NCBI GenBank assembly: GCA_028717385.1
Contig: JAQUNW010000006.1
Location: forward strand, 1-52,596
Length of the DNA: 52,596 bases
Source of the DNA: Dehalococcoidales bacterium
GTDB lineage: Bacteria > Chloroflexota > Dehalococcoidia > Dehalococcoidales > CSSed11-197
Reading direction: 5' to 3'
A program made the translations under genes and the position numbers. This document shows, in pieces, positions 46,458 through 52,596 of the stretch. The notes under the pieces are model-generated. The model worked only from the letters and a program-made list of their open reading frames with translations, searched no databases and had not been told where the DNA came from. Every line of letters begins with the position of its first letter. Within the stretch, counting starts at the first letter, position 1.

Positions 46458-47159
46458 CTAGTGATCAATAATAACCCTGTGAAAAGCTTCGGCCAACGGG
46501 TAATTCTGGCCTGAAGCCATCTCTTGAGCTCTTTGCCTTAACCATAGTTCAAGGTTTTTCTCATTATGAGAACCCAGCTGGGAAGAATGACATTTAAGTG
46601 CGTCTATTTTCCGGTTAAAAGAATCAGTTATATCAACATAATAATTAGGGTCTTCGCTGCCCCAAAAAAGCATTTCTTTTACCATATGCGATTCAAGATC
46701 CTCTTCAATCAACTCGGGAAAAGCTGGACGATTTCTCGCAAAAGGATACACTGCTTCAGCAACAACAAGCCCCGTAATTCGGTGATCCCTATGCAATAGA
46801 TAGCGTCGGTAGGGATCAGTGGTAGCAACTGCAAGGGGTTTATATCGCCGGATTTGGCGAGTTATTGCCAGGCGTAATTCGTAGTTATCCTCAAGGCTTC
46901 CGTCAATAAAGCCTAAAAACTCCACTGTCTTGACTCCCAGGATTTTAGCAGCTGCCAATTGCTCCAACCGCCTGGCACTTTTTAATTTTTCAGGAGTCAT
47001 TTGTTTATCTTCGCTACCCTTTTCGCCACCGGTAACTATTACGTAAACTACGGTTTTTCCTTCCATGTAATACTTTGCAACAGTGCCTGCCATGCCAAAC
47101 TCAGCATCATCCGGATGAGGGGAAACAACGAGTAAATCAGTCACCTGTGAGGTCATCAT
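46458..47159 (-). CDS. PIG-L family N-acetylglucosamine deacetylase-like (MshB/BshB-like)
   Basis: A 233-residue zinc hydrolase with the PIG-L motif HPDDAEFG (H15, D17, D18) and the second histidine pair expected in the HRDH (LHRDHRITG) segment. The N-terminal strand is VVSPHPDDAEFGMAG as in BshB. Members remove an acetyl group from GlcNAc-inositol or GlcNAc-malate in mycothiol or bacillithiol synthesis, or from other glycans. It overlaps the MshA-like glycosyltransferase by 4 bp, so the two are coupled, which supports this role; the true substrate is inferred. Confidence 0.88.
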   Translation of the reverse strand: MMTSQVTDLLVVSPHPDDAEFGMAGTVAKYYMEGKTVVYVIVTGGEKGSEDKQMTPEKLKSARRLEQLAAAKILGVKTVEFLGFIDGSLEDNYELRLAITRQIRRYKPLAVATTDPYRRYLLHRDHRITGLVVAEAVYPFARNRPAFPELIEEDLESHMVKEMLFWGSEDPNYYVDITDSFNRKIDALKCHSSQLGSHNEKNLELWLRQRAQEMASGQNYPLAEAFHRVIIDH

Positions 47160-48394
47160 ACTGCTCCTGCCGTGTTAAAAGCTAAAGCTTCAAATTCATT
47201 GATTAATTCCTGGCTAACATTCACCCAGCTAAAACCGGCAACTGTCTCTCTGATTATACTTACCTCAACAGCAGTCCTTGGAGAGCGTTTTATCCAATCC
47301 CTGAATGTTCTTGCAAGCTCTTCAGTATTTAACTTTTTTAAAATATCTCCGCTTAAGCCAGGCTTGATAATATTTTTTAAATCCCCGACATCTCCCGCAA
47401 TCACCGGGCACCCGCAAGCCAGCGCTTCTATAGCAACAAGACCAAAGCTTTCATAATATGAAGGAACAACCAACACACTTGAAGTTGAATAATAAGCACT
47501 AAGCTCTTCTTGCGGGACCGGACCGGTGAATATCAGTTTATCGGCAATACCTTCTTGTATTGCCTGTTGCTGCAGCTGGTTAACTCCATCATTACTGCCA
47601 TCACCGCCAACAATCAAACAGATCCAGCCATCATCAGCCTTAATTAAAGATAACGCTTCAACGAGAAGACTGGTTCCTTTAAGAGGATCAATTCTTCCAA
47701 CATATAAAATAATCCGCGTTGAACCATCTCGCAGACCGGGTACTGGCGAGGGACGAAAAATTGGTTTAAACATTTCCAAATTAACGCCACATGGTACAAC
47801 CCGGATTTTATCGGCACTTGCTGAATATAAATGACAAAGATAATCTTTTTCCCGATCAGTGGAAGCAATTATCCGATCGCATACCTGTATAATCCTGTAC
47901 TCTTCCTGCAAACGCAAATCAGGTTCAACCAATCCTTGCCCAATCTGATTTTTTACTTCTCCAAGCGTATGGAACATTACGATATGTGGAATTTTCCATC
48001 TATCTGAAAGTAATTGACCGCTGACACCAGATAACCAATAATGACTGAATATATAGCTATACTCACTATTATTCTCTTTAGCGAATCTATATACACCCTG
48101 ATTAAAGGTATTAATATGGGAGTGCAAGGCAATTTTATCTACTACCTCTTGCGTTTCTCCGGCTTTGATATGCACAAGACGAACACCTTCTGCCAACAGC
48201 GTAACGTCGCAACTATGCGAATTGTGGCCACGTGTGAATATGTCAACGTGAAAACCTTTACTGGCAAACTGTAGCGCAACTTCCCGTATATAAACGCTCA
48301 TACCTCCGGTGTCCCGGGCACCCAAATTGCCAAGCGGACAGCTATGAAGGCTGATTAATGCTATGTAGCGAGGAATGTTTGCCGAATATCTCAT
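47156..48394 (-). CDS. GT4 glycosyltransferase resembling MshA
   Basis: A 412-residue GT-B enzyme. Its N-terminus (LHSCPLGNLGARDTGGMSVYIREVALQ…FTRG) follows the MshA/sucrose-phosphate-synthase pattern of LSLHTSP-xx-PGtgDxGGMNVYV, which binds the acceptor. The donor domain has LYVGRIDPLKGTSLLVEAL and the E-x7-E pair in YYESFGLVAIEALACGCPVIA. MshA joins UDP-GlcNAc to 1L-inositol 3-phosphate, the first step of mycothiol. The adjacent PIG-L deacetylase and the ino1 elsewhere in the window fit this, but related GT4 enzymes use other acceptors. Confidence 0.85.
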   Translation of the reverse strand: MRYSANIPRYIALISLHSCPLGNLGARDTGGMSVYIREVALQFASKGFHVDIFTRGHNSHSCDVTLLAEGVRLVHIKAGETQEVVDKIALHSHINTFNQGVYRFAKENNSEYSYIFSHYWLSGVSGQLLSDRWKIPHIVMFHTLGEVKNQIGQGLVEPDLRLQEEYRIIQVCDRIIASTDREKDYLCHLYSASADKIRVVPCGVNLEMFKPIFRPSPVPGLRDGSTRIILYVGRIDPLKGTSLLVEALSLIKADDGWICLIVGGDGSNDGVNQLQQQAIQEGIADKLIFTGPVPQEELSAYYSTSSVLVVPSYYESFGLVAIEALACGCPVIAGDVGDLKNIIKPGLSGDILKKLNTEELARTFRDWIKRSPRTAVEVSIIRETVAGFSWVNVSQELINEFEALAFNTAGAV

Positions 48395-48396
48395 GG

Positions 48397-49383
48397 TTAA
48401 CTTAATTCTATTTCAAGGCTGTAAAGATTGATACTTGTTCCCCCGAGCCAGCGCTTGTACTTCTCATCACCCTTTAAGAAATCCCATTTGCACCGCCCGA
48501 TATTTATGGCTTTTTCTATTGCAAGAACTTTGCTCAAGAGTCCAACGCTAAGGTTGGCATGGCTAAAATTATAAGCATTATTATACAGGAAAATGGAATT
48601 ATTACAGTCAAAAAGAAGCACCATGGCCACTCTCTCGCCATCAACTTCCAAACACCCGAACCGCAACACACCACTTGGACCAGCTTGCTCCCAAATCTTG
48701 TTAAAGAACTGCTGCATCAACGGTGTCATGAAACCGGCTTTTTCTATCTGATTCAAAAAGAACAATCTTAAAAAATCTTGCATATATTCCGGGCTATATG
48801 AATAGCGCGAATAGTTATCACCAGTGTAATAGAATTTCACCCTATTAGCTTCAAGCAGCCGCCGCATCTTGCGCCTTATTTCATGCCGATTCTTTTTGTC
48901 TAAAGTATCGAGATAAGCGCTAAAAGTCGAAGGAAGGGGCATCTCCAGGCTAACAGTTTCCTGTTTCACAGTTGCCCTGTGTTTAAGAGCGGAAGCTACT
49001 GGAGCCAACTCGGTAATAGCCAGGGAATCTGGCCTAAGGTGCCGCAAATGCAATCTCCTGATTTTTTCTTTTTTCACATCATCTAATAAAAGAGTAAAAA
49101 ATTCTTCTTCTTTTCCGTTGATCGCTATGAAGTCCTGGTAATCACAAATATCAGTCGAACCCAGAAATGTTGCCGTATCGCCAGATATCTTTAAGGGAGC
49201 TATCGCGACCGGCTTTGTATCTTGTATACCAACTTTGATATAAGAAGAATAATCTCCGCCAAAAACCTCCCACCACGAGAGAATCCATTCTGGAGTTAAG
49301 AATGGATTCGAAATACCTGTTTCTGCTTGCACCATTTTAGCCATCGAACAAAGGCCTGTAATATCTACGTTGGATATTATCAT
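48397..49383 (-). CDS. GNAT acetyltransferase-like (CelD/BcsL family) protein
   Basis: A 328-residue protein of the BioF2-like acetyltransferase family, with GNAT-fold halves at both ends (SNPFLTPEWILSWWEVFGGD, RFGCLEVDGERVAMVLLFDCNN) and the central LDKKNRHEIRRKMRRL element common to this group. These proteins transfer acyl groups to sugar- or amine-containing molecules in cell-surface or small-molecule pathways. It is 2 bp upstream of the MshA-like gene and so probably acts on the same product; an acetyl transfer to the deacetylated sugar (as MshD does for mycothiol) is inference. Confidence 0.8.
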   Translation of the reverse strand: MIISNVDITGLCSMAKMVQAETGISNPFLTPEWILSWWEVFGGDYSSYIKVGIQDTKPVAIAPLKISGDTATFLGSTDICDYQDFIAINGKEEEFFTLLLDDVKKEKIRRLHLRHLRPDSLAITELAPVASALKHRATVKQETVSLEMPLPSTFSAYLDTLDKKNRHEIRRKMRRLLEANRVKFYYTGDNYSRYSYSPEYMQDFLRLFFLNQIEKAGFMTPLMQQFFNKIWEQAGPSGVLRFGCLEVDGERVAMVLLFDCNNSIFLYNNAYNFSHANLSVGLLSKVLAIEKAINIGRCKWDFLKGDEKYKRWLGGTSINLYSLEIELS

Positions 49384-49494: not shown

Positions 49495-49524
49495 TTGACA
49501 AATTGCACTTTAAAAAGATAAACT
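49495..49524 (+). promoter_or_regulatory. Promoter of the formate dehydrogenase gene
   Basis: A perfect -35 TTGACA (49495-49500) and a -10 TAAACT (49519-49524) are separated by 18 bp. The expected start near 49531 places the first base of the leader structure (49535) at the 5' end of the RNA, which supports the two being one unit. Confidence 0.6.
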
Positions 49525-49534
49525 TGCCTTATAA

Positions 49535-49649
49535 CTCCGAGCTAGGCTTTCCTAAACTTTTTTCGGGCAAGGGGGCCAGCCGCAGGGCGAGCAAAAAGTC
49601 CGAAGGGTGCAACCGGAAACAGTTGCGCCTACCTCTTTCAGGAAAGGAG
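49535..49649 (+). ncRNA. Candidate molybdenum/tungsten-cofactor riboswitch (Moco-like leader)
   Basis: A GC-rich, structured island in AT-rich spacer, at the predicted 5' end of the formate dehydrogenase mRNA. Its ends CTCC (49535-49538) and GGAG (49646-49649) can pair as an outer stem. It begins CTCCGAGCTAGGC and ends GCGCCTACCTCTTTC, close to my recollection of the conserved ends of the Moco RNA family. Inside are a TTCGGGC/GTCCGAA stem (49562-49568 with 49598-49604) and an 8-bp hairpin GGTGCAAC/GTTGCGCC (49606-49613 with 49622-49629). Moco RNAs precede molybdoenzyme and cofactor genes, and the downstream gene is a molybdopterin enzyme. The family call is from memory and needs a covariance search. 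The remaining 160 bases to the start codon hold nothing else I recognise. Confidence 0.6.
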
Positions 49650-49811
49650 ATTATTAAGAGGAAAAATTTTGCTCCGAATAAACCTGCTAGGGGTATTTGT
49701 TAACGATAAAGAATACCAGTATCAATTACATGGGTATGATTACGCATACAGGCAATACAGCTTGTATGCTTTTTTATTTTTATAGAGTTTTAAACAAAGG
49801 GGGTAGAGTTT

Positions 49812-52596
49812 ATGGAAATTAGCCGAAGGAGTTTTCTTAAAGCCTCCGGCGCAACCTTGGGCGGATTGTTTCTATTTAATGGTGTTGATAATAACGCCGT
49901 CATGGCCAGATCTCTTAAGAAAGTTCCTCTTAAGAAGAAGGTCAAAGAGTCAACAACAATCTGCTGTTACTGCAGCGTGGGCTGTGGTCAGATAGTATCC
50001 GTCTACGAGGATGGTATTATCAAAATAGAAGGTGACCCGGATCATCCCATCAATGAAGGGGCACTTTGTCCCAAAGGCCTGGCGATGTCACAAATTCACC
50101 AGGTAGATGGCAAACCAAATCCGTACAGGTTAACCAAACCTTTGTACAGAGCCCCAAACTCAACCGAATGGGAAGAAAAATCATGGGAATGGATGCTGGA
50201 TACCATTGCTGCCAGGGTTAAGGCTACACGGGATGCCACCTGGGTCGAGTCAGCAAAACGTACAGAAGGGCTGGCTTCTTTTGGCGGTGGGGAGCTAGAC
50301 AACGAAGAGGTCTACATGCTTACCAAGATGAACCGCGCGCTTGGCGTGGTGTATCTTGAACATTGTGCACGCATATGACACTCCTCTACTGTAGCGGCTC
50401 TGGCAGAGTCGTATGGAAGAGGGGCAATGACCAATCATTATATCGACCTCAAAAACTCCGATTGTATAATGATAATCGGCTCCAATGCAGCTGAGAACCA
50501 CCCCATTTCATTCCGGTGGATTACAAAAGCCAAGGAAAAGGGGGCAAAACTGATCAGCGTTGATCCACGCTTTACCCGCACTTCTTCCAAGGCAGATATT
50601 TACGCCCCGATGCGCTCAGGGACTGACATAGCTTTTATCGGTGGAATGATAAACTATGTCATCAACGACATTGAACAAAATCCGGGCAACTACAACATGG
50701 AATATATAACCCAGTACACCAACGCATCGTACATTTTAAATCCGAGTTATAAATTTAATGATGGCTTGTTCGGCGAAATAGAACAAAAAACATACAATGG
50801 TTCATACACCGCTGCTTCGAAGGCAACCTGGAAATATGGTGGCGGCAACACTCCCGAAGCAGACCTGACCCTTAAAGATCCCAATTGTGTTTTCCAGATG
50901 CTGAAAAAGCACTACTCGCGTTACGATGCAGACACTGTATGCCGCATTACCGGTACACCCAAAGAGGATTTCCTCAAGGTTTGCCAGGCATTTGCAGAAA
51001 CTGGAAAAAAAGATAAAGCTGGTACAATCTGCTATGCAATGGGAGCTACACAGCACACCTATGGCGTACAGAACATACGCGGTTATTCCTTGTTGCAAAC
51101 ACTACTCGGAAACATGGGAGTTGCCGGTGGCGGCATCAATGCTCTTCGCGGCACTTCCAACGTACAGGGTTCAACCGATATGGCAGCGCTGGAGCATATT
51201 CTTCCAGGTTATATCGATATGCCAATTGAGGGCGATAATGATATCGACTCGTTCTTAAGGCGTGTTGGCAAGCATCCGGCAGCTACCATTACTCCTCCCA
51301 CAGGTCTGGCCGGGGATACCAGCGCTAACTGGTGGCAAAATACCAGGAAATACCTTGTGAGCCTGTTAAAAGCCTGGTACGGAGATGCCGCAACACCGGA
51401 AAATGAATTCGGTTTCAACTTGCTTCCCAAAAGAAATCCGGCAGTCAACTACACTCATATTGGCTTGATTGAAGCTATTAGCCGCGATGTTATAAAAGGT
51501 CTTTGGATCTGGGGACAGAATCCTGCAGCCGGTGGCCCAAATGCCAATGGCGCCCGGGAAGCTTTTGCTAAACTTGACTGGATGGTTTCAGTTGATATTT
51601 GGGAAAACGAAACCGCGATCTTCTGGAAGAGGCCTGGGGTAGATCCAACCACTATTAAGACTGAAGTGTTTATGCTGCCTGCAGCCTGCTCATATGAAAA
51701 AGAAGGCAGCATCGCCAACTCCGGCCGCTGGGCACAATGGCGCTATAAAGCAGTTGAGCCAAATGGTGAAGCTATAGCTGATCTTGAAATTATGGCTGAG
51801 TTGATGACAAAAATCAGAAGTCTTTATGCAGCCGATTCTAACGCACCCGGCCGAGAAGGTGTTCTTAACGTAACCTGGGACTACGATGCCCATGTTACTG
51901 CTGATCAAATCGCCAGGGAAATCAATGGCTATGATTTAACCACTGGCAAGCTAATGGCTAGTTTTGCCAACCTTAAAGACGATGGAACTACTAGTTCGGG
52001 TAACTGGCTATATTGCAATAGTTATACTGAAGATGGAAATAAACTGCAAAAACGTGACCCGGTTGATGCTCACCCGCAGAAAATCGGGCTGTTCTCCAAT
52101 TGGGCATGGTGTTGGCCGGTTAACCGCCGCATCATCTACAACCGCGCAGCCGTTGACCTGAACGGGAATCCTTACGATAGCGAACACCCGGTAATCTCCT
52201 GGGATGCCCAAGGTGCCAAGTGGGTCGGAGACGTTCCTGACGGAGCTTGGGCTCCTATCAACGTAGCCGACACCGGCGCAAAGACTCTTCCGTTTATAAT
52301 GAAACCCGAAGGTGTTGCCAGGCTGTGGGGTTTCGGGAACGCCGAAGGTCCGCTTCCTGAGGTTTATGAACCATGGGAGTCACCACTGGATAGAAATATT
52401 ATGTCCGGTCAGAAAATTAATCCCTGTGCCTTTATCGGCAAATGGATGAACGAACAGGGAACACCCGATAAATATCCTTATGTGGACACAACCTATCGTT
52501 GTACAGAGCACTGGCAGACCGGCATCATGACCAGAAGCCTGCCCTGGCTCGTAGAGCTCATGCCTGACATGTATGCTGAAATGGACGAAGTTCTCG
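49812..52596 (+). CDS. Formate dehydrogenase catalytic subunit, selenocysteine-containing, Tat-exported (3' partial)
   Basis: A molybdopterin oxidoreductase running off the right edge (928 complete codons, so most of an about 1,000-residue FdnG-like protein). A twin-arginine signal (SRRSFLKASG) leads, then the 4Fe-4S cysteines C51-x2... as C51/C54/C58 with C86 (CYCSVGCG…ALCPKG). At codon 189 the frame meets TGA (50376-50378) exactly where FDHs have Sec or Cys, in the context R-I-U-H-S-S-T-V-A-A-L. The frame is open on both sides, without other stops, and the downstream part continues normal FDH sequence (CIMIIGSNAAENHP, KLISVDPRFTRTSSKAD). A SECIS-like hairpin follows. AAAGGGGG site before the ATG. 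It oxidises formate outside the membrane, feeding electrons to partners beyond the window. Confidence 0.93.
50376..50412 (+). promoter_or_regulatory. Selenocysteine UGA codon with bacterial SECIS-like hairpin
   Basis: The in-frame TGA at 50376-50378 is followed 15 bases on by a hairpin: 5' arm GCGGCTCT (50394-50401), loop GGC (50402-50404), 3' arm AGAGTCGT (50405-50412), 8 bp including two G-U pairs. A small apical loop starting with G, roughly 16-37 nt after the UGA, is what SelB-recognised bacterial SECIS elements look like. The structure was folded by eye; no energy was computed. Confidence 0.75.

Follow-up and report, generated by a model that had tools for sequence, protein, structure and literature searches.

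The in-frame UGA at codon 189 of fdnG, a formate dehydrogenase gene at one end of the 52,596-nucleotide window (the whole stretch of DNA that was analysed), almost certainly encodes selenocysteine (Sec), as is the case for this enzyme in numerous anaerobic bacteria. Judged from the sequence, the gene product would be a periplasmic, Tat-exported and membrane-bound formate dehydrogenase (FDH) of the FDH-N type, which carries a SelB-decoded Sec in its active site and oxidises formate. The probability of this reading was estimated to be about 0.97. The Sec interpretation had been proposed in an earlier note on this DNA and is supported by the present analysis, in which those of the note's checks that were run all gave results in favour of Sec.

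The fdnG reading frame and its UGA codon

The features of the gene, its leader and the region downstream of the UGA are as follows.

49523..49665, plus strand: Moco (molybdenum/tungsten cofactor) riboswitch aptamer RF01055 in the fdnG leader (Rfam cmscan 57.5 bits, gathering 36)
49796..49803, plus strand: likely ribosome binding site AAAGGGGG, 8 nt before the ATG, read from the sequence
49812..52596, plus strand: fdnG, formate dehydrogenase-N alpha subunit, predicted selenoprotein (TIGR01553); cut by the contig end, last part on contig C27
49812..49910 (end approximate), plus strand: probable twin-arginine signal peptide (MEISRRSFLK...; Pfam TAT_signal 20.3 bits, slightly below the cut-off of 22.7)
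49944..50096, plus strand: molybdopterin oxidoreductase Fe4S4 domain (CCYCSVGC...C; Pfam PF04879 58.4 bits, residues 45-95)
50376..50378, plus strand: UGA codon 189, predicted Sec at the Mo ligand position (reading frame, alignment to PDB FDHs, homologues)
50394..50412, loop 50402-50404, plus strand: predicted bacterial SECIS hairpin, 8 bp, GGC loop (hairpin scan, recoding test, codon invariance)

The frame starting at ATG 49812 contains a single TGA, at 50376-50378, in the peptide R-I-U-H-S-S-T-V-A-A-L. It then stays open for 739 further codons, as far as the end of contig C6, where the window also ends; a lone TGA at the Mo-ligand position followed by more than 730 open codons had been described earlier. 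The read-through product scored 1069.7 bits against TIGR01553 (cut-off 814.2) and covered positions 1-920 of the 1009 of the profile. The remaining part (profile 845-1008) was found on contig C27, and fdnG was taken to continue there because the ends of C6 and C27 overlap by 237 bp; the joining of the gene across the two contigs depends on this overlap, in which one mismatch was seen. The alignment around codon 189, suggested as a check, placed the UGA in the Sec column of the solved FDH-N/FDH-AB structures (PDB 1h0h, 9qm0), with R-I-U-H-S in the Sec/Cys column of the PDB enzymes and His next to the ligand.

The expectation that an annotator stopping at the TGA would lose the rest of the gene was not borne out, as ORF calling with table 11 also returned an ORF that starts at ATG 50427 and is at least 723 aa long. 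Automatic annotation splits UGA genes such as fdnG into two ORFs.

The hairpin downstream of the UGA

The 8-bp hairpin with a GGC loop reported in the earlier note was located at exactly 50394-50412 (GCGGCUCU-GGC-AGAGUCGU; two of the 8 pairs are G-U), and its conservation was detected at the RNA level. By the bSECISearch rule, a SECIS hairpin has a G in the first two loop positions and lies about 16-37 nt after the UGA. The fdnG hairpin agrees with this rule, its loop beginning 23 nt past the UGA; no SECIS match was obtained from Rfam in the window at gathering cut-offs. The fold of the 45 nt after the UGA was unexceptional relative to dinucleotide shuffles (z -0.53), and since plain folding was uninformative, codon-level tests were used instead. 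When the downstream peptide was recoded in 4000 trials with synonymous codons drawn according to the codon usage of the window, 0.6% of the recodings gave an equally stable hairpin in an allowed position and 0.35% reached an equal 48-nt MFE. Of 906 other codon positions in fdnG, 19 had an equal hairpin, so the single sequence alone provides moderate evidence.

The strong and decisive evidence for the predicted hairpin is the codon invariance across species. The codons GCG GCT CTG, GAG and TCG were invariant in all 41 Sec homologues with the peptide V-A/P-A-L-A/G-E-S, a set which spans Dehalococcoidia, Anaerolineaceae and Thermodesulfobacteriota (Chloroflexota to Desulfovibrio) and includes two near-duplicate pairs (L031/L079, L032/L078). 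The sole variation in the six hairpin codons, GCA/GGA, alters the third loop base alone, whereas the flanking codons vary although their residues are similarly conserved. The Cys homologues with the same peptide (n=4) mostly use other codons and are mostly without the hairpin. Separately, an intact SECIS-like hairpin was observed in two Cys-coded FDH homologues from Nitrospirota and Calditrichota MAGs, L097 (TGC) and L085 (TGT), indicating either a recent Sec-to-Cys change or a sequence error.

The loop of the E. coli SECIS contains GU. As the fdnG loop is GGC, recognition of this hairpin by SelB was assumed. The codon at Sec+7 ended in T in 82 of 82 Sec homologues (GCT 41, GGT 19, AGT 22), and the loop began at 23 nt in 40 of 41 sequences with Ala at this position, at 18-19 nt in 19 of 19 with Gly and at 19 nt in 21 of 22 with Ser. 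The Ala (GCU) class has a 7-9 bp hairpin with a GGC, GGG or GUC loop; in the Gly (GGU) and Ser (AGU) class the loop beginning at 18-19 nt contains GGU or GU. The Ala-class stem-loop is nearly frozen from Chloroflexota to Desulfovibrio, and its GGC form is a ready test object for the tolerance of SelB. Compensatory pair changes were found in the sister class (column pair 18-30: CG, GC, AU, UA); its covariation score of 0.239 was higher than in all 500 shuffles, which ignore relatedness, and all slid controls, in a sequence set chosen by its predicted hairpin. The three FDHs of the source genome have the loops GGC at 23 nt, GUC at 23 nt and GGUCU at 18 nt, hence a single SelB would have to serve both kinds of hairpin. 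The odds seem about even that the SECIS register of FDH-N is set by the Sec+7 residue, with the Ala class possibly being a distinct SelB-recognised type without a loop U. A description of this relation was not found in a limited literature search, which is not proof of novelty; the prediction of the register from Sec+7 is regarded as mildly new.

Selenocysteine machinery, relatives and alternative readings

The source assembly (1.37 Mb, 96% complete, 0.8% contamination) was searched family by family. The Sec system that the earlier note had expected elsewhere in the genome was found as one cluster on contig C2, consisting of tRNA-Sec with a UCA anticodon (C2:30016), selD (C2:30170), selA (C2:31243) and selB (C2:32610). 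The absence of selB and tRNA-Sec had been named as grounds for rejecting Sec; both are present in the same assembly, and the complete set of selA, selB, selC and selD, by which bacterial selenoproteins are judged, is in the genome. The selD gene has its own in-frame TGA (MSLSEYSGU; L017 about 1528 = C2:30197) at the usual Sec/Cys position. The second- and third-best matches to the tRNA-Sec model were tRNA-Ser.

Two further UGA formate dehydrogenases were detected, on C7 and C2. The FDH-N paralogue on C7 (L023 / L059 5321-8362; C7:21326-24355) is accompanied by beta, NrfD and FdhE genes, and its grouping with Smithella and relatives in the tree suggests a separate acquisition. Beside it lies a GntR-type regulator with a molybdopterin-biosynthesis-like domain fused at its C-terminus. 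A nearby frame with two TGAs (L059 11440-14319) was rejected as a selenoprotein after inspection of the translation, being NrdD and then NrdG with an ordinary TGA stop. The C2 enzyme, a NuoG-like N-terminus plus FdhA split by the TGA (L061 4326-10496, minus strand; C2:59.3-65.5 kb), adjoins a NuoF-GltD-like fusion (1029 aa) and NuoE, features suggestive of an NAD(P)-linked and possibly electron-bifurcating enzyme. Acetyl-CoA synthase CdhC was searched for in the genome and not found, and a full Wood-Ljungdahl role was therefore not taken further. One Tat-exported reductive-dehalogenase-like protein is encoded on C1 (L153 1099-2496; PF13486, 45 bits).

Among 61 genomes, the Sec column was occupied by UGA in 14 (own included), Ser in 2, Cys in 2 and Asp in 1. 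Of the 14 UGA-form genomes, 13 have SelB; the 5 genomes with Ser, Cys or Asp all lack it (Fisher p = 5e-4). The one UGA-form genome without a SelB match is G030, with a completeness of 87%; SelB is present in its congener G054. The Ser forms (L042 and L048, of the order-level relatives G049 and G013) both occur in genomes without SelB, and the identity between the fdnG product and the G049 form was 47%. In a quick tree, with midpoint rooting for drawing only, the Ser forms lay inside the Dehalococcoidia Sec group, adjoining the Sec forms of G030/G054 (SH-aLRT 99). This nesting fits a loss of Sec and, for the Dehalococcoides Ser form, a joint loss of Sec and SelB.

The TGA is formally a stop codon and is followed by the ORF from ATG 50427, so fdnG could be regarded as a pseudogene arisen by a nonsense mutation or as two separate proteins. 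By comparison of sequences, this is in practice already refuted by conservation, and its probability is negligible: 14 genomes of the order and 84 homologous sequences carry this TGA, the frame stays open at the full family score, the codons downstream are constrained at the RNA level, and the complete Sec machinery is encoded in the genome. It is just as improbable that an error in sequencing or assembly turned TGC/TGT (Cys) or a Ser codon into TGA. The assembly is a draft of metagenome type, and Cys and Ser homologues exist, but the TGA is shared by the congeners G003 and G004, whose proteins are 85-92% identical, and by the named MAGs L078 and L079; in addition, the SECIS hairpin is intact in fdnG and mostly lacking in the Cys homologues with the same peptide.

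An unlikely alternative, less remote than those two, is that Sec is inserted but the protein no longer mainly oxidises formate and instead transfers electrons within a complex for organohalide respiration, a role proposed for the Ser-bearing FDH-like protein of Dehalococcoides. The reductive-dehalogenase-like protein, the NrfD-like membrane subunit and the nesting of the Ser form among Dehalococcoidia Sec enzymes are in line with such a role. In contrast, fdnG has kept the Sec residue and SECIS together with FDH-beta-like and FdhE-like genes, whereas in the Ser-form genomes Sec has been lost and SelB is absent. The product of fdnG is probably a working formate dehydrogenase.

Proposed function, gene neighbourhood and known systems

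When the ribosome reaches UGA 189, the downstream hairpin would bind SelB loaded with Sec-tRNA-Sec, the product of SelA and SelD, and SelB would insert Sec in place of termination. The Sec would coordinate Mo or W in bis-MGD. Formate would be oxidised to CO2, the presumed direction, and the electrons would be passed to the 4Fe-4S beta subunit and from it to the NrfD-type membrane subunit as the likely acceptor. The Moco riboswitch, which was also found upstream of fdnG in congeners (L031/L079 and L032/L078), probably tunes synthesis to the cofactor supply.

Three genes follow the end of fdnG on C27; their products resemble FDH-beta (a 4Fe-4S protein), NrfD (a membrane protein) and FdhE. The best match of the beta subunit was TIGR01582 FDH-beta, with 214 bits, under the equivalog cut-off of 334.7. 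The cytochrome b gamma subunit FdnI of the E. coli type is not encoded there, the third gene of the set being NrfD-like (PF03916, 97.5 bits).

The combination of an FDH-N-type Sec-FDH and a standard sel system is of a known kind, and its novelty is small: Sec-FdnG together with selCDAB has been published for Dehalogenimonas (PMC4918011; PMC13390414). Both belong to the class Dehalococcoidia and have an FDH-N with UGA-encoded Sec, a complete sel cluster and Sec-SelD. The present assembly differs by its two additional UGA formate dehydrogenases, the Moco riboswitch directly before fdnG and a membrane subunit matching NrfD in place of the b-type cytochrome gamma subunit described for Dehalogenimonas. 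With FDH-AB and FDH-N (PDB 1h0h, 8cm4; E. coli 1kqf) the fdnG product shares the alpha-subunit family over the full length and the Sec column; the E. coli FDH-N gamma subunit is a cytochrome b, unlike the NrfD-type subunit here. The FDH-like CISM protein of Dehalococcoides is a homologous alpha subunit with Ser instead of Sec, as stated in the earlier note, and a relation to functional FDHs has been proposed for it (PMC5736913). The results show that an uncultured Dehalococcoidia lineage has the genetic equipment for a genuine formate dehydrogenase of the Sec type.

The upstream neighbours, all on the opposite strand, look unrelated to fdnG and code for an MshA-like glycosyltransferase, a PIG-L deacetylase, a GNAT/FemAB-like protein and an indolepyruvate oxidoreductase. 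The MshA-like glycosyltransferase and the BshB/MshB-like PIG-L deacetylase (46458-48394 and 48397-49383, minus strand), with the adjoining GNAT/FemAB-like protein, may belong to a low-molecular-weight thiol or glycoside pathway.
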